Assembly: GCA_029232285.1 (NCBI GenBank)
Contig: JAOXFI010000013.1
Location: 1 to 64,000, forward strand
From: Agmasoma carcini (nom. nud.)
Taxonomy: Eukaryota; Microsporidia; Thelohaniidae
Length of the DNA: 64,000 nucleotides
Direction: 5' to 3'
Shown: piece by piece, positions 7,565-61,949 of the stretch
Position numbering within the stretch: the first letter of the stretch is position 1
How the letters are laid out: each line of letters starts with the position of its first letter
Made by a program: the position numbers and the translations under genes
Notes under the pieces: model-generated
Database searches by the model: none
Told to the model about the DNA's origin: nothing
What the model saw: only the letters and a program-made list of their open reading frames with translations

Positions 7565-7860
7565 ATTTTTTTCGGCCTTGCTAAGGGTGTAACGTTGTAA
7601 ACAAAAGCTAATTGGACTATAACTGAATAATAGCAGGGGTTAAAACACAGGAGGTATACAAATAACATTCTTCACCCTAACTAATGATAGATAGACACCC
7701 TTTCTTATTGGTTAAGAAGACCATTTTGTGATATCAAAGATATTATATGAGCTGCAATTGCATCTTATGGCTTAAGAGGGGCGAGTTCTAAATTTACTAT
7801 CAATTTAAAAAGCGATAAGTGTATAATTGTTACATTCGATATCCATTTTTAAGTATTGAA
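7565..7860 (-). repeat. Dispersed repeat family R1, copy 1
   Basis: The reverse strand contains blocks shared with five other places: ATGCAATTGCAGCT, AAGAAAGGGTGTCTATCTATCA, AGGGTGAAGAATGTTAT, TTTTAACCCCTG and TATAGTCCAATTAGC. It lies just after tRNase Z. No coding capacity is visible. The outer edges are approximate. Confidence 0.7.
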
Positions 7861-11826: not shown

Positions 11827-11904
11827 ATTTTTGATTTTTATCAATAGTAGAGAATAGTGAACTCTAAATATTATTTTTTATCACTGCTATATAATAATAG
11901 ATTT

Positions 11905-12265
11905 ATTTAATATTCTAACTAAGGTATAGACATAAAGTAGTATTGCTTTGAAGTCTTTCCGCCCATTTTTGTATTTTTTACAAATAATCTAAAATAAAAT
12001 ATAGAAAAGCAGACCAATAGCGGGGATGATGGCCTTACACTTATCGTGCTTTGATAAAGTTACGCTCTATGGGATGTGATTTTAGTTTATTTTAGTATTA
12101 TTACACATTAAAAAACTTATATATTTGAGATAGTTAGCTAGGGTGAACAGGGTTATCCTTACAGCCTTGTTTTGACAGATAATATTACCATGTTTAACCT
12201 AATTAGTCGTTATTTCTTACATTACCAAGTGGAGGTCTGAACTTATTACAGAAGAAATTTATTAT
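11905..12265 (+). repeat. Dispersed repeat family R1, copy 2
   Basis: The shared blocks are in + orientation: CTTATCGTGCTTTGATAAA, GGGATGTGATTTTAG, TAGCTAGGGTGAACAGGGTTATCC, TACAGCCTTGTTTT and GTTACATTACCAAGTGGAGGTCT-like words. It aligns best with the copies at 25.7 and 44.2 kb. It is decayed in the middle. Confidence 0.65.
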
Positions 12266-12818
12266 ATAGAGTTTATCCATCTAATTGTAAATGATTCATA
12301 TCTACGCGTAAATTTTTAATTTATTAAATGGTATAAAAGTAAGCAAATAGATACGAACTAATATAAAAAACATATTAAATTAAAATATATATTTAATAGT
12401 TGTTGTGTAAAATTTGAAATTAGATAGAGAACCCCTATAATTTCAAGTTTTGGTCTTTAATACAAAAGCCTGATGGTTAAAGCTGATAGATTCTTTTAAA
12501 TTCAATTTATTGGTATTTATGAATCATAACTACCTCATATATTAATTTTTTGTTTCTTATGAATAATTGTATTATCATTATAGTGAAAATTGACAACTTT
12601 TTTCAGAGTCAAAGGATGTAGTACAATCTTAAAAACCTTTAATAACTGTGTTAGGAAATATACTATATCTACCCTAAAATGAAAAATTAAAGACATATAA
12701 CCCTCTACCATATAACATATCTGTTGAAATTGATCAATATTACATTTTTTATCTTCATTTTAATTTTTTTTATTAAAATTTTTATCAAATTTTATGAGAC
12801 TCAAAATTTTCAGTTTCC
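12266..12818. other. Intergenic, upstream of the RecQ helicase
   Basis: AT-rich DNA with no credible open frame. The last 50 bases include CAAATTTTATGAGACTCAAAATTTTCAGTTTCC before the helicase ATG, matching the local start signal. Confidence 0.4.
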
Positions 12819-19079: not shown

Positions 19080-19635
19080 AATTGTTTATATATGTGTGGC
19101 TGTGTGTATATACTTGTGATTATATGTATATATGTATGATTATATGTATATATATATGGCTATATGTGATGGATAGCCAGTTATTTTTGTTATGTCAGAT
19201 AGTCGGATGTCAGACAGATAGACAGATAGTCATATAATCAGATAGTCGGATAGCCAGATAGTCGGATAGTCAGACAGACAGTCAGATAGTCAGATAGTCG
19301 GATAGTCAGACAGACAATCAGATAGTCTATAATCAGATAGTCGGATAGTCAGACAGACAGTCAAATAATTGGATAATCAGATGTCAGACAGATAGTCATA
19401 TAGTCATATAGTCATATATAGTCATATATAGTCACATATAGTCACATATAGTCACATATAGTCATATAGTCGGATAGTCAGTCAGATAGTCAGTCAGTCG
19501 GATAATCAGGTGTCAGACAGATAGTCAGATAGTCGGATAATCAGATGTCAGACAGATAGTCATATAGTCAGTCGGATAATCAGATGTCAGATAGATAGTC
19601 ATATAGTCATATAGTCAGATAGTCATGGTTAGTTA
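19080..19635. repeat. GATAGTCA/GATAGTCG-type satellite
   Basis: A long degenerate array is built from 8-10 bp words such as CAGATAGTCA, CGGATAGTCA, CAGACAGATA and CATATAGTCA, preceded by TGTATATATG-type repeats. It sits upstream of the ABC transporter promoter. The complementary word (TGACTATC) makes up another array at 56.7 kb. Confidence 0.9.
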
Positions 19636-20063
19636 GTCAATAATAGTTTTGTTTTAGTCAAAAACATTAAAAATTTTAATTCTAAATATTGATTAAAAAC
19701 AAAATTTAAAAATTTTGATGTTACTTTTGTAATACAATTATGTATGAACTATTTGGTATGTAGAATTAATGTTACATTTTTATAAGTAGGCTCGTTCTAT
19801 TCTCACTTAATACATTAATTTAATTTTTATTTACAACAATATAGCACTCAGACTCTCATATCTAATATTAGAATAATTTTGTATTTCATGAAACATAACT
19901 TTTGAAGATAATTCTGTAATACCTAAATTTTATGTTATATAAAAATAAGAGAATTTATTTTACTATTAAAGATGCATCAAATCTTTAGATAAATGAATAA
20001 TCATGTTTTAATTATTAAAATATTATCATATTTATATTCATAAGAACTATAGAGTGTAATATA

Positions 20064-23349: not shown

Positions 23350-23600
23350 TCTGTGATGAGATGTAGAGTAGAAATAAACAGATAAGTGAACTATAACTGG
23401 TTAGGGCTGATTGTATACTGATAACATTATTCATTATGGTAAACTAGTTTGTGATATAGATAGACACATCTTTTTATGGCAGGGAAGGGCCACTTATTAA
23501 AGATATAAGTTGGTGGTGTGCGTAATAGCACTAAGTCTATCTGCAATTACATCCTATGGTAGTTTTTTATAGTTAAATAGGGCATGAACATGCTGCTTTT
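23350..23600 (-). repeat. Dispersed repeat family R1, copy 3
   Basis: The reverse strand gives one of the best-preserved copies: GATGTAATTGCAGATAGACTTAGTGCTATTACGCACACCACC, CTTATATCTTTAA, GTGTCTATCTATATCACAAACTAGTTTACCA and TTATAGTTCACTTATCTGTTTATTTCTAC. It matches the 44.2 kb copy across most of this length. Confidence 0.75.
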
Positions 23601-25595: not shown

Positions 25596-25699
25596 GGTTG
25601 AAAAATTTTAATTGTAAAAATAAAAATAGTCAATCTGGTATTTGTTAGTTAATATTGATATTTGAAAGGATAGATTATAATTAATAAGTTATTTTCTAT

Positions 25700-26235
25700 G
25701 ATTTTTGGCTAATGTCTGTGGTATAACATTTAAAAATATAAAATAATATCGATTGGAAGCCATTCCACATATTTTCTACAAAGAATCTTAATTACCAGTC
25801 AACCTAAAAAAGAACCAGCAAGTAAAAAAACTAAAATCAAAAAATAAATAAAAGCGACGGACAGCGGAGAGGATAGTGAACATATACTATTCGTACTTTG
25901 ATAAAAGGTAGTAGAAGAGACTTGATTGTTATGTGGTATTAGATGATTACAATAAGACTATAAAGACACAGTACCATAGGATGTGGTTATAGCTCGGCTT
26001 AGTGATATTACACACAACGATCATCTTATACCTCCAAGATAGTGACCTTTTCTACCAATAAAGAAGAGGTGTATGTCTGTCCATTTTTAGTTAGTCCGAA
26101 CAATGTCATTTGCACCCCCTACGACCTTCTTAGACCCTGACAAACTTTAATCTGTTATAAATTAATTAGCTGTTGTTTCCTACGTTACCAACTATGTATC
26201 ACGTGAAAGTATGGATTCACTGACAGGCTGAATCT
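25700..26235 (+). repeat. Dispersed repeat family R1, copy 4 (near full length)
   Basis: It aligns with the 44.2 kb copy over about 500 bp: CGATTGGAAGCC, TTTTCTACAAAGAATCTTAATTACCAGTCAACC, ACTATTCGTACTTTGATAAAAGGTAGTAGAAGA, TAGCTCGGCTTAGTGATATTACACACA, AAGAAGAGGTGTATGTCTGTC and TGTTGTTTCCTACGTTACCA. No open reading frame runs through it. Confidence 0.8.
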
Positions 26236-26439
26236 ATAGATTTTATTAATTAATTATTTTTATATTACTATCACTCTTCTATATATAACTATTCTCGTCT
26301 ACAATTAATTTTCGTCTATTTATAATTATTCTCGTCTATAACTAACTAACTAATTATTCTCGTATATATAACCCATATATATATATCTAAGTATTTTTAT
26401 ACAATTTAACCAATATTAAATCTTCTATATTTTATAAAT

Positions 26440-43045: not shown

Positions 43046-43299
43046 ATACACTGGAGGGAAAAAACTGGACACCCCTAAAATGATTGATTTTTGGTGATGT
43101 GTTAAAACATTTTAATAAATATTGTTATAATTATTTGGTAAGATTGTGTTTTTATTTTTTGTATATTATTATATATTTTACGAATTTTGTAAATTTGTCG
43201 GAAAAACAAGCCGGAATCCCAGTAAAAAAAGACTCCTTCCTTCCATCATTTTTAAAATTATTGCCCTTATGAGTAGTCATTAGCCTTTAGATATTAAAA

Positions 43300-44160
43300 A
43301 TCTTATTTTGTGACTTAAAGAAGATAAAATGTCAATAATTGATATTTTATTTAGCAAAGAAAATTGGTTCTGGAAGGCATAAGATTATTGAGGGTGAGTG
43401 ATTGAAATAAAAATTAAAAAATATCACGAAAAAAATTATTTTTCACCTCAACAGAGTTATCAAAAAACCCGTCATTAAATGTAACACCAAATCAATAATA
43501 AACGCATGTATAATATAAATATTCATGCAAGACTTGCAGCTAATGAACCTTTTTGACTAAATTAAACAAATAAATTCGTTTAAAGTGGACATTAAAGAAT
43601 ATTTCAAATATAAAAGATGAATTGGAAAGTGTTGATTAAAGCTCAATAAAGTGATAGAAAGGGATTGGTGTAGAAGAATTCAGGATATAGGTTCAAAGAA
43701 GATTGTATCAATAAAACCACAAATTCGGAGGGGTAGTTCGATGTATTGGGGTTATATATCAAGTAAGAAATTAGGAAACTCGGTGCTGGTGTATAAAAGG
43801 TAAAATGTATTGGTTTTATTGATCCTTTAGCACGAATGATGTTATTAGATGAATTTACCTCTATATAAGACAACGTATCTTGTAACGCTTCTAGGTTGAC
43901 AAAGTCATGATTTAATGAAAATGATATTAATGTCATATATTGGCCAGCTCAGTCACCCGATTTAAACTTAATCGAATCTATTTGGGACATAAAAAAAGAA
44001 TTTATTAAAAAGGGTTTAAATCACTAAATGATCCTAATAATGAAATGTTGTAATTATAGTCTAATATACCAGACAAAGTTGTTAAAAGTTGATCTATACC
44101 ATGAGAAATAGATGTTATTAAAGCTTATAGTGTCTAATGAATTATTGATTAAGATTTTTC
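43300..44160 (+). pseudogene. Tc1/mariner transposase remains
   Basis: Readable pieces on the + strand, in several frames, are SMYWGYISSKKLG (the WG-I block of Tc1 transposases, about 43741-43780), WPAQSPDLNLIESIWDIKK (third catalytic residue block, 43942-43998) and IPDKVVKS with EIDVIKAYSV near the C-terminus (44067-44135). Stops and frameshifts occur throughout. A minus-strand open frame at 43643-43936 is only its complement. Confidence 0.85.
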
Positions 44161-44215
44161 TACCGGGTGTCTGCTTTTTAGCCAAATTTATAAAATTCAT
44201 AAAAATATATAACAA

Positions 44216-44715
44216 TATATGTGATACAATAATAATAAAATATTTATTTGCCTAATATGCTTGCTTAGCTAAAATATTAAAACACAAAATGGTATAGATT
44301 GGAAAACCTTAACACTAATATTCACGTTTTTTACAAAGAATTTTAATTATCAATAAACTTACCATAAAAGAAAACCCGAACCAAGCAAGCAAAAACTCCT
44401 AAATTAAATAAAATGAGAGAGGGTGAAAACAGATATTAATGACCATACACTATTCGTGCTTTGGTAAAAGGTAGTAGAAAAACTTGATTTTTATATTATA
44501 AGCTAGGCTTAGTGCTATTACGCACACCAACCAGCTTATATCTTTAAGAAGAGGAGTATCTGTATATGACCGCAAACTAGTTTCCCAGAGTGAACAAAGT
44601 TATCCGTATCCCCACAGCCATGCTTTAACCCCTGACCTGTTATAGCCCAATAATCTGTTGTTTCTAGCTTTACTACTCTGCAACACGTAGAGGTCTAGAC
44701 TCATCATAGAGAATA
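44216..44715 (+). repeat. Dispersed repeat family R1, copy 5 (inserted in Tc1 element)
   Basis: This is the reference copy. It interrupts the right inverted repeat of the Tc1/mariner element, so its ends can be placed by comparing with the intact left repeat: about 490-510 bp long. AATATA occurs at both junctions (44214 and 44712) and may be a target duplication, but the DNA is so AT-rich that this is weak. Main blocks: ACTATTCGTGCTTTGGTAAA, GGCTTAGTGCTATTACGCAC, AAACTAGTTTCCCAGAGTGA, AACAAAGTTATCCGTAT, TTTAACCCCTGACCTGTTAT. No open frame runs through it. Confidence 0.82.
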
Positions 44716-44843
44716 TACATGAATCAAAAATTAAAAATGCAATCTAACCTGATAATTAGAACAATATTTATTAAAATGTTTTAACACGTCACCAAAAATC
44801 AATCATTTTAGGTGTTATTTTTTTCTTCTATGTATAACACATA

Positions 44844-54759: not shown

Positions 54760-55640
54760 GAGAAGATTTTTAAATATAAAAATTTTTACAAAAATTAAAA
54801 AAAAATTAATCGAATGAAAAATTTGTGTGTAAGTGGATTAAACAAGGATAATTCTTGTTAGTTATTATACTTTTAATTAATTAATTTAGATAAAAGATTA
54901 ATAAAAAATCTTAAATATTTTTATTATAAAATTTAATATATTAATAAAAAATTTAATATATTAATTATAATAATAACACTTATATTTGTGAAATGTGAAA
55001 TAATATAAATAAACATCTTTCTATGTATTAGATAAGCATAGATTTTCTAATAAAATATTACCACGGTCTAATTTTTTAATTATAAAAAAATTCATTAAAA
55101 CCAAACCAAAAGCAATTAATGTGTAAATTAGCTATAATAATAAAGGAATCATAAATTATAGGATGTATAGAGATGTAACGATACTAGTCAACGTATTAAT
55201 ATTAATATTCCGTGTTATATCAAATATATATTATAATTTCTTAATATATTATAGATTATACACTTTGTATCTTATAATAATATCTTTAAAGCAAGAGTAT
55301 TAAGTTTTTGACTGTGATTCTTCAATGAACTTAAATTTTAATTTTGGGGCCCTTAGAAAATTTTTGTTGTTTTTATAGTAAAATTTTTAATTAATTTTAA
55401 TTAAAAATATAAATAATGTAAAACTGTTATATTCTATCTTAATGTTTGTATTATAAGTTTTTATTTTTTAATTTTCATTATTACTTTTTCTATAGAATAT
55501 TTCATAATTATAAGTTTATAATAGTAGATGTTGTTTAAGTGAATATTTTTGTAATTATACACATCATATTACATAATTCTTATATAAATAATCTTTATTA
55601 TAGAATATTTGAAAGTATAGTGTTTATTTATTTCTAAAAA
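54760..55640. other. Gene-free AT-rich stretch
   Basis: Promoter region of the ABC transporter followed by nearly pure A/T sequence. No gene is seen. Confidence 0.4.
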
Positions 55641-55644
55641 TATA

Positions 55645-56035
55645 TAGTATAGATAGTCACACTAACATCGTTAGACAGTATAGATAGTCACACTAACATC
55701 GTTAGATAGTATAAATAGTCACACTATCATCGTTAGATAGTATAGATAGTCACACTGTTATCGTAACATAGTATAGATAGTCACACTATCATCGTCACAT
55801 AGTATAGATAGTCACACTATCATAGTCACATCGTCCTCATACCATCATCGTCACATCGTCACACTATCATCATCACACTATCATCATCACACTATCATAA
55901 TCACACTATCATCGTCACATCGTCAATCATCACACTATCATAGTCACACTATCATAATCCCACTATTCACACTATCATAGTCACACTAACATATCAACAT
56001 TATCATAGTAACAACATTCATATAGCTATATATAT
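55645..56035. repeat. CACACTATCATCGT minisatellite
   Basis: It begins as units of about 31 bp (AGTATAGATAGTCACACTAACATCGTTAG, five copies), then decays into 12-15 bp units of CACACTATCATCGT / CACACTATCATAGT. It ends about 20 bases before the stop codon of the sulfhydryl oxidase gene, so it would lie in its 3' region. Confidence 0.9.
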
Positions 56036-56517: not shown

Positions 56518-56859
56518 TTTTTTTATATTTCGTTTCAGAAAATTAAAAAATGATTTGTTAAACAAATTTTGACAAATAAAACATATAAATTTGTTGTTTT
56601 AAGATTAAAAATGGTATAAGTAATTTTGTAAATATTTAATATTGATCTTATTAATATATATTTATATTAGACTTACAAACTGACTAACTGATTAACTATC
56701 TGACCTGAGTGACTATCTGACTATCTGACTATCTGACTATCTGATTATCTGATTATCTGACTATCTGACTATCTGACTATATGACTATATGACTAATCTA
56801 ATCTAATCTAATCTAATCTAATCAATCTAATCTATCTAATCATATATCATTATCATTTT
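56518..56859. other. Intergenic with TGACTATC microsatellite
   Basis: Most of this spacer is the repeat described separately; the rest is AT-rich promoter DNA of the oxidase gene. Confidence 0.5.
56680..56850. repeat. TGACTATC and AATCT microsatellites
   Basis: Tandem CTGACTAT / CTGATTAT octamers are followed by seven or so copies of CTAAT. The octamer is the complement of the GATAGTCA array at 19.1-19.6 kb, so the same simple word has expanded at two places. Confidence 0.9.
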
Positions 56860-60199: not shown

Positions 60200-61030
60200 T
60201 ATTTAATTTATGATGTTTTGACTTAAAACATTGATTATTTATAAAATAAACTTAAATTTTGCGAAAGGTGATTTTGACTGTTTCTTTGATCTAATTCAAT
60301 AATCTTAATCAATATATTTTATATATTGTTGTATCCTAATTAGGTACCACATAGATAAATTTTTAAGCTATAAAAGATTTACCTTAATGGGTTTTACTAA
60401 GAATAGAAATGAGCACTATAAGATAAATAAATTATCCTTAATAATTTTTACTTGCTTTATAGACGAGTTTTGCTTGTGGATTACATCAATATTTAAAATT
60501 TTTGTATATATGATGAAAGGATATTAGATTTTAGACTTATATTAAATATTTATTCATATTGAAAAATCGAGTATGTTTATATTTATTTTGCTTATATATC
60601 TAATACATTCTTATGATTTTAACACCATATGATAAAAATACAAAATCTTTATAATTTTAGAAAATAAAGTTTGTTTTTTAAGGAGTCGGTTCTGCACAAA
60701 AACAAAGATCTTATTACAGTTTAACTGCGTTAAATCATTAATTAAACTATATAAATCCAACAAATAAAGAGATCATGACTTGATAAATACTGAAAAAAAG
60801 AGAAGGATTGGTTCAAAGACTTTTCGACCACATCTTGAATTTATTAAAAATTATATATTCACTAAAATATGAAACACAATTATTTATTAACTATTCTGTA
60901 AAAAGAAAACCTTTTTTCAATACTGTTGTAGTCTGTGTTTGATGGAGATCTGATATTATATCATAAATATCTTAGACAGGTTTGAAACTATTTAAGAAGT
61001 TTAACCCTTACAGACAAATATGATAAATAA
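60200..61030. other. Gene-free AT-rich stretch
   Basis: I see no gene, RNA or recognisable repeat. Confidence 0.4.
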
Positions 61031-61039
61031 ACACTTTGA

Positions 61040-61350
61040 ACCTACTTACAACAAATACTTCCTACATGAAAATCAACATTAATTATCATTTCTACAAATA
61101 TAAGAAACAAAGGTATAATATCAATCATACACTTATCTTGCTTTGATAAAATTGTATAAAAAGAAAAATACCAGCCCTTTTAAACCATCTTAAAAGATTA
61201 CAATAGAAATTTACAAATGATGCGATTTTAGTGTTTTAGTGTTTTACGCACACCACTTAGTTTATAAATTCAATTTTTTTGCCAATGAGAAGGTGTAAAT
61301 ATCATCAGTTAATCCAAATATATTCAATCACATTATGTGTAAGAGGTCTT
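61040..61350 (+). repeat. Dispersed repeat family R1, copy 6 (decayed)
   Basis: Shared words in + orientation: CACTTATCTTGCTTTGATAAAA, ATGATGCGATTTTAGTGTTTTA, GTGTTTTACGCACACCAC, TAGTTTATAAATT, GCCAATGAGAAGGTGTAAATATCATCAGTTA and TGTAAGAGGTCTTGA. More diverged than the others. Confidence 0.6.
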
Positions 61351-61949
61351 GAATTTTGGCATAACATATATTAATATTTGTACTATTTTGAAATCAATAA
61401 TATTTGTACTATTTTGATATTTATTTAAATATCTCATAATTAAAACTTATGAAAAAAATCTTGATCTGTTGATGTATTAAGAGATACTATATTTATGATT
61501 AGCAAAAGGTTGATATTGTTACTAATCTTGTTGGTTTTAGGTTTAAGAGGGTTAGAATTGAGATATTTGAAACGAATACAACCATATTAACTGATAAATC
61601 TCCACAATTCGACTATTTTTTTGCAGCTATTAAATTTATATTCAAATATAATATTTCAGTAGCAATATTAAAGCATGTAAATATCATTTTTAAATTCAGA
61701 AAAAAATTCAAATTTTCTATTTAATTATTCAATTTTATAAACCAAAAATATAGTAAATTTCCTTAATAAAAGAATAAGTAGTGTTATGTGTAAAAGGCTG
61801 GGTTATTGGTGGAATTGATCTCTATTATAAATATTTACTGATATTATTCACATTTAAACTTGAATATTATTATATTTCAAATACTATAAAAAATCTACCT
61901 CTATTTTTTTCCTATTAACAGATTATAAATATTATGATTATTCTAAGTC

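Follow-up and report, generated by a model that had tools for sequence, protein, structure and literature searches.

R1, a dispersed short repeat of the microsporidian Agmasoma carcini, is probably a non-autonomous retroelement headed by an HDV-like ribozyme

Self-cutting RNAs of the hepatitis delta virus (HDV) type, which fold as a nested double pseudoknot of the helices P1, P2, P3, P1.1 and P4 with a catalytic C in J4/2, are known from the virus itself and from some mobile elements of insects and trypanosomes. Short interspersed nuclear elements (SINEs) that are transcribed by RNA polymerase III (pol III) and depend on a long interspersed nuclear element (LINE) have target duplications, a LINE-like tail and dispersed non-coding copies. 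Among the closest described systems, the Drosophila SIDEs (R2 SIDE and R2/R1 hybrid SIDE) are short, ribozyme-headed elements of the non-long-terminal-repeat (non-LTR) class (PMC3414825, in the part consulted), and the NARTc, RIME and SIDER elements of trypanosomatids are short, non-autonomous and start with an HDV-like ribozyme (PMC4035085, likewise in part). Here we describe R1, a repeat found in several copies in a 64,000-nucleotide stretch of the Agmasoma carcini genome (contig JAOXFI010000013.1, positions 1 to 64,000 of the forward strand; hereafter the window). R1 is very probably a non-autonomous non-LTR retroelement of the SIDE/NARTc-like kind, headed by a ribozyme that is predicted to cleave itself and mobilised by a LINE.

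R1 shares with the R2/R1 hybrid SIDEs, in which duplications of 14 bp are found and the head need not derive from the mobilising LINE, the general plan of a short ribozyme-headed element (PMC3414825, same part). SIDEs sit in 28S rRNA genes, whereas R1 copies are scattered over the genome, with a body several hundred nucleotides long and a ribozyme that matches the known models weakly. The trypanosomatid elements resemble R1 in size, dependence and head; their first 77 nt are common to the autonomous LINE and double as a promoter (PMC4035085, same part), two features in which they may differ from R1. In its drawn P1-P3-P1.1-P4 layout, its CUAA-type J4/2 and its predicted cleavage before base 1, R1 is like the ribozymes of the Rfam models RF02682, RF01787 and RF01788, and it differs from them in scoring below the gathering thresholds and in forming a divergent set in a microsporidian.

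Copies of R1 are dispersed in the genome assembly (4.26 Mb in 69 contigs). An R1 probe gave at least 59 matches, among them one of 481 query bases at 74% identity and one of 380 at 77%, a lower bound with 40 of 141 candidates scored, and a query with a copy of the subfamily R1-B gave 60. Pooling both searches with two further places yields at least 65 clusters on 38 contigs, which span 29,416 bases, or 0.69% of the genome with strand disregarded; the tail of the other subfamily, R1-A, used alone as a query adds at least nine places by our count. An alignment of 38 near-full R1-A copies, taken as nhmmer matches spanning model position <=26 to >=570, with L001 and L018 excluded because they duplicate the window and L020, fixes the strand and both ends of the element, beyond which the majority drops to background. 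In the sense orientation, which is the minus strand of the window at 44.2 kb, R1 begins with GCTCTGTGATGAGTCCAGACCTCC and ends with AAATAAACCTTTTATTATTATT, the 3' tail being (ATT)n, and R1-A copies are ~450-600 nt long.

The first ~69 nt of R1, the head, can be drawn as an HDV-like self-cleaving ribozyme, with all five helices drawable on the majority sequence of the 38-head alignment. In the hand-drawn fold, P1 pairs GCUCUGU with GCAGAGU and places a G.U at the cleavage site, P2 pairs AGUCCA with UGGGCU, P3 pairs ACC with GGU, P1.1 pairs CC with GG, and P4 is formed by CGUUG GAAA CAACG, followed by a J4/2 of GCUAA that holds the C expected for catalysis. Of the 38 heads in the alignment, 28 have a C at the catalytic position, and the four letters of P1.1 are kept in 27, 29, 30 and 22 of them; 21 heads start with G and 11 with A. 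As read from alignments, R1-B has replaced the P4 loop and kept the stem. When the whole genome was searched with RF02682, 22 of the 25 matches at E<=5 (best E 1.2e-4) lay on R1, 21 of them overlapping R1 clusters and the 22nd, on C47, being followed after 0.3 kb by an R1 tail of the same orientation; the three remaining matches (E 0.45-2.6) were counted as chance. The same concentration was obtained with RF01788 (7 of 9 genome matches overlapping R1, best E 0.02, with starts ~30-60 nt upstream of base 1 as read by eye) and with RF01787 (7 of 8, best E 0.05), both of them models of mosquito retrotransposon ribozymes. Six further loci gave E 0.003-0.03 with RF02682, and this repeat is not independent because the loci had been picked around RF02682 matches; most R1-B loci were likewise obtained through the RF02682 genome search. 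The fit of the head to models of HDV-like ribozymes is weak, and it recurs.

This concentration of three HDV-like models on R1 copies bears on another explanation, that R1 is a conventional SINE, derived from a small pol III RNA with a tRNA, 5S or 7SL-type head and mobilised by a LINE, whose HDV-like resemblance is accidental. We regard this as improbable. R1 is like LINE-dependent pol III SINEs in its length, its duplications, its dispersed non-coding copies and a LINE-like tail, and differs from them in its head: tRNA, 5S and signal recognition particle (SRP) models found no match in 12 R1 loci (six searched at E<=5, six at E<=2), with pol III A and B boxes covered only as far as the Rfam models contain them, and the only Rfam matches inside R1 were HDV-like ribozymes (in one of six loci, the other six having been picked with RF02682).

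To score target-site duplications, the flank that ends at ribozyme base 1 was compared with the bases that follow the tail, 18 bp being the length limit. The 38 near-full copies had a mean score of 8.34 and mismatched pairs one of 5.47, and none of 5000 permutations was as high; 21 of the 38 copies scored >=8, as did 12.7% of mismatched pairs, and 17 showed no clear duplication by score. The R1-A score peaks at base 1 (8.34) and falls to 8.05 and 7.92 when shifted by one base either way, and five R1-B copies behave in the same manner (12.0 at base 1, 11.0 and 10.6 after one-base shifts), indicating that the 5' end of the inserted DNA is the predicted cleavage site, to the base. Scores of >=9 were found in 19 of 43 copies, with duplication lengths of 9-18 bp. 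Some R1-B copies have perfect duplications on both sides (for example TTATATACAATAATCAGC and ATTGATATCATATGA), and at the R1-B copy B_L063 a 15 bp repeat is visible, its low score being due to a search region that began too late. Duplications of variable length together with a simple-repeat 3' tail are the signature of non-LTR, target-primed insertion, and their position at the predicted cleavage site makes target-primed reverse transcription the fitting mode of copying. As in SIDE/NARTc-like elements, the head sits at the exact 5' end of the element.

The original prediction had recognised no family for R1, had thought a solo LTR or a SINE-like element possible, and had proposed looking for flanking target duplications and for a longer internal element bounded by two direct R1 copies. 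The duplications were found at many copies, the suggestion that a SINE-like element is possible was right, and the head fits a class of ribozyme that is not visible by sequence identity alone. The solo LTR, which would here belong to a Ty3/gypsy element, can be given almost no weight: the size fits, the genome has Ty3-like pol genes and two of these genes (L055 and L056) share their stretch with R1 pieces, but these pieces are ~2-4 kb from the pol stretches and not at their ends, the repeat directly after the pol gene on C21 is not R1, and no pair of R1 copies bounds a longer element with reverse transcriptase or integrase in the stretches examined. The duplications, moreover, are 9-18 bp where 4-6 would be expected, and the (ATT)n tail and strand-specific head also count against an LTR.

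A candidate for the LINE that mobilises R1 was found on C48. The reverse-transcriptase-bearing stretches of the genome, with nine matches to the domain RVT_1, include a LINE cluster there that has RVT_1 (E 2.2e-35), that adjoins the 3' end of a small-subunit (SSU) rRNA and whose relatives are LINE-1-like by name, with LINE-1 ORF2 among the solved structures. The tail of R1-B resembles the 3' region of this LINE over 91 nt (73%, 48.2 bits, where 1000 shuffles reach 39.2 at best), and a profile of the R1-B tail matches the C48 LINE at two places in LINE sense (E 1.1e-8 and 1.1e-5), at one of which a second short block lies upstream in the same order (E 0.09). Only a local search is sensitive enough to show this likeness, since the R1-B tail as a query of the whole genome returned only the eight R1-B copies. 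R1-A and the LINE have in common the stem-loop motif ACCAAA..TATGGT, which occurs 18 distinct times in 329 kb of partly overlapping sequence (by reading, 12 in R1-A, four in LINE stretches and two elsewhere), with 0.4 expected per 64 kb. The stability of the tail hairpins was mixed, with z of -3.3 and -2.3 for LINE stretches, 0.1 and -2.4 for R1-B tails and -0.8 for an R1-A tail. Separately, decayed LINE copies apparently stand in a row at a contig end (L045:2851-2912 and L059, C48:30000-42071), and the C48-type LINE possibly has a preference for ribosomal DNA or subtelomeres.

R1-B was found at eight places, seven of which are 83-88% like the query copy, and it has the head and much of the body in common with R1-A, the last ~70 nt before the tail being different. 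R1-B is the younger subfamily, and its copies have near-perfect target duplications. The R1-A bodies form a star-like tree whose end branches are near 0.11; 5 of its 35 inner branches are starred (the bootstrap had not settled). This shape fits a burst of copying from a single source or a few. The same star shape would be expected if R1 were not a selfish element and its copies were retropseudogenes derived from a single cellular gene for a non-coding RNA with an HDV-like ribozyme; we consider this quite unlikely, given two subfamilies that differ in divergence and tails, both with duplications, and the likeness of a tail to the LINE 3' region. Some R1 copies stand in pairs, head-to-tail or inverted, within ~1 kb (L013, L015, L018/L020, L021 and L023). 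At L026:1496-1953, 18 nt that resemble the R1 head with one mismatch come after the 3' target duplication, as though this copy had landed on the border of an older one.

Several results weigh against the reading of R1 as a ribozyme-headed, LINE-mobilised element. No R1 match reached the Rfam gathering score (best for RF02682, 35.3 bits compared to 44), the HDV model RF00094 gave no match, and among 14 control genomes matches at E<=5 were present in 4 for RF02682, 2 for RF01788 and 11 for RF01787. When six loci picked by DNA likeness were searched against Rfam at E<=5, only one matched RF02682 inside R1 (L020, E 0.16), this independently found match beginning at base 1 of the alignment, and the other five had no match there. 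In the 38 decayed R1-A heads, 81.8% of the cells of the drawn pairs are paired; column shuffles give 81.2%, with 66 of 500 reaching the real value, and 94 of 500 had as high a covariation score, so that neither measure exceeds the shuffles. Single-strand nested folding of five heads, a model that leaves pseudoknots outside, was no more stable than shuffles. A fold descriptor fitted 2 of the 38 R1-A heads and was unspecific, with 37 chance matches in 10 simulated windows; in the real window it found three places outside R1 and no R1 copy. The R1-A tail is only weakly like the LINE, with nothing beyond the shared stem-loop motif, and the R1 head model found no R1-type ribozyme on the sampled LINE stretches, whose 5' end is undefined. 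Most of the 3' strand of P1 is absent in 15 of the 38 R1-A copies, 10 of which have a head shortened at GTGGT.

Compensatory change is not expected among R1 copies, because they decay after insertion, and covariation was therefore left unused. Slid pairings gave 31-47% paired compared to 81.8%, a control that a majority-derived structure tends to win. The fold descriptor fitted four of five R1-B heads and one of two further heads (L064, L069), and none of 50000 shuffled versions of a single head; as a scanning tool it was rejected for its poor specificity where A and T abound. The absence of the 3' strand of P1 was also tried as a subfamily marker and rejected, the state being scattered over the tree with 11 changes compared to a shuffled mean of 12.0 (bootstrap not settled). 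These losses look recurrent, between short direct GTGGT repeats, and may have happened during copying or later. More tentatively, the head could be a portable maker of 5' ends in a compact genome: R1 would have kept its ribozyme and swapped its terminal ~70 nt, the younger subfamily following a different LINE from that of the older, and the P1 losses would mark where a reverse transcriptase skipped over the ribozyme in its folded state.

Under the ribozyme-headed, LINE-mobilised reading, R1 RNA would be carried in a longer read-through transcript started at an upstream promoter, and the HDV-like ribozyme would cut it free and so fix its 5' end. A LINE reverse transcriptase of the same genome, possibly of the C48 type, would then recognise the 3' part of R1 with its ATT-rich tail, nick A+T-rich targets and prime copying there, which would leave the 9-18 bp duplications.

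In the window itself, copies were located with an nhmmer profile built without the window copies, and the reversed window, used as a control, gave no match at E<=10. All six regions that the original prediction had grouped as one repeat align to this profile (Table 1), and only the 44.2-kb and 25.7-kb copies are near full length. The profile match at 44.2 kb covers 44216-44722 (E 2.5e-132); the 12.0-kb copy was matched in pieces at 12132-12268 (E 2.6e-15), 11992-12058 (3.7e-7) and 11886-11992 (1e-9); and the 61.1-kb copy, missed at default settings, was matched in an unfiltered search of 60801-61700 plus 2301-2800. The 44.2-kb head has a T as first base, one P1.1 G changed to A and an A at the catalytic-C position, and without these three bases the copy is a fossil. 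Its duplications are identical at 9 of 13 positions by reading, and at 13 of 18 across a longer stretch. The size first estimated for R1, 490-510 bp, holds if the duplications are counted, while the element proper is ~485 bp; that R1 is non-coding stands, and no terminal inverted repeats were seen. The proposal that the 44.2-kb copy splits the right inverted repeat of a Tc1/mariner element is borne out by inverted arms (43071-43208 against 44725-44815 plus 44172-44219, 90% and 83% alike) and by a DDE_3 fragment between them (43911-44024, E 3.8e-7), and the rejoined right arm aligns to the left arm across the break, bar a few bases. This insertion and the dispersed copies in the genome confirm that R1 has been mobile, as first suggested.

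Table 1 R1 copies, their parts and the split host transposon in the window
Feature	Positions	Strand	Remarks
R1-A element proper, 44.2-kb copy	44228..44712	-	~485 bp; 5' end 44712, tail stops near 44228; both ends set by alignment and duplications
HDV-like ribozyme head, 44.2-kb copy (decayed)	44644..44712	-	R1 head model, cmsearch 66.9 bits; head is a row of the model
Target-site duplication, 5' copy, decayed	44713..44725	-	coordinates read off sequence
Target-site duplication, 3' copy, decayed	44215..44227	-	coordinates read off sequence
ATT-rich 3' tail	44228..44245	-	TTTTATTATTATTG in sense
Host element: decayed Tc1/mariner-like transposon, right arm split by R1	43071..44815	+	arms and DDE_3
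Second near-full R1-A copy (25.7 kb)	25680..26228	-	profile match 25732-26240, E 6.4e-86
Head of 25.7-kb copy	26159-26228	-	R1 head model 51.6 bits; head is a row of the model
Candidate duplications of 25.7-kb copy	25663-25679 and 26229-26245		
5'-half R1 fragment	23363..23551	+	profile E 4.5e-34
R1 copy with internal deletions (12.0 kb)	11886..12268	-	three collinear profile matches
Head of 12.0-kb copy	12196-12254	-	R1 head model 57.2 bits
5'-half R1 fragment	7587..7743	+	profile E 5.8e-15
Decayed R1 fragment (61.1 kb)	61103..61296	-	E 4.3e-13, filters off, 1.4-kb search space

Further features were noted in the window and the genome. Ty3-like pol genes with RVT_1 lie at L055:1-3127 (C21), L056:4736-7759 (C37) and L061:3174-5083 (C38), with the integrase domain rve on C21 and C37 and the C38 stretch 70% like that of C21; the sequence that follows the pol gene on C21, ~600 bp long, recurs at L041:2340-2956 and L033:97-535 and may be the LTR of that element, with solo copies elsewhere. 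A 792-aa reverse-transcriptase gene at L047:955-3333 (C26), telomerase-like by reading and with RVT_1 as its sole match, has an R1 copy ~0.55 kb downstream on the same strand. At L002:1239-1302, ~0.2 kb from an R1 copy, there is a candidate C/D-box small nucleolar RNA (SNORD31-like; E 3e-4 at 33.7 bits, short of the gathering score). In the window, related 8-bp units that resemble GATAGTCA or its complement form arrays at 19201-19637 and 56702-56813, 37 kb apart in opposite orientation, with further arrays at 1281-1478, 2636-2902 and 55610-56017. The ribosomal protein L5 of the window is closest to that of Hepatospora eriocheir (51%), and the next named entries include Nucleospora, Ordospora, Anncaliia and Ecytonucleospora, which places the species in the Microsporidia at some distance from every named entry in that search.

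HDV ribozyme variants exist in other fungi (PMC5640933, in the part consulted). In the main text of PMC4202319, which treats microsporidian transposons, and of PMC7313128, the words 'SINE' and 'ribozyme' are absent, and they are likewise absent from a 2026 report of a telomere-to-telomere microsporidian genome in which LINEs are present (PMC13174016). Among the open-access papers listed, by titles and the starts of abstracts, none reports a microsporidian HDV-like ribozyme or SINE, and within the literature so searched R1 would be the first such element in microsporidia. Ribozyme-headed short non-LTR elements are already known, so that what would be new here is the phylum, with self-cleavage predicted. 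If this reading of R1 is true, ribozyme-headed non-autonomous retroelements extend to microsporidia and an otherwise unclassifiable repeat is explained. It would also provide a sequence rule, ribozyme base 1 adjoining a target duplication, for finding such elements where similarity fails, and the young R1-B copies make both self-cleavage and dependence on a helper LINE directly testable.
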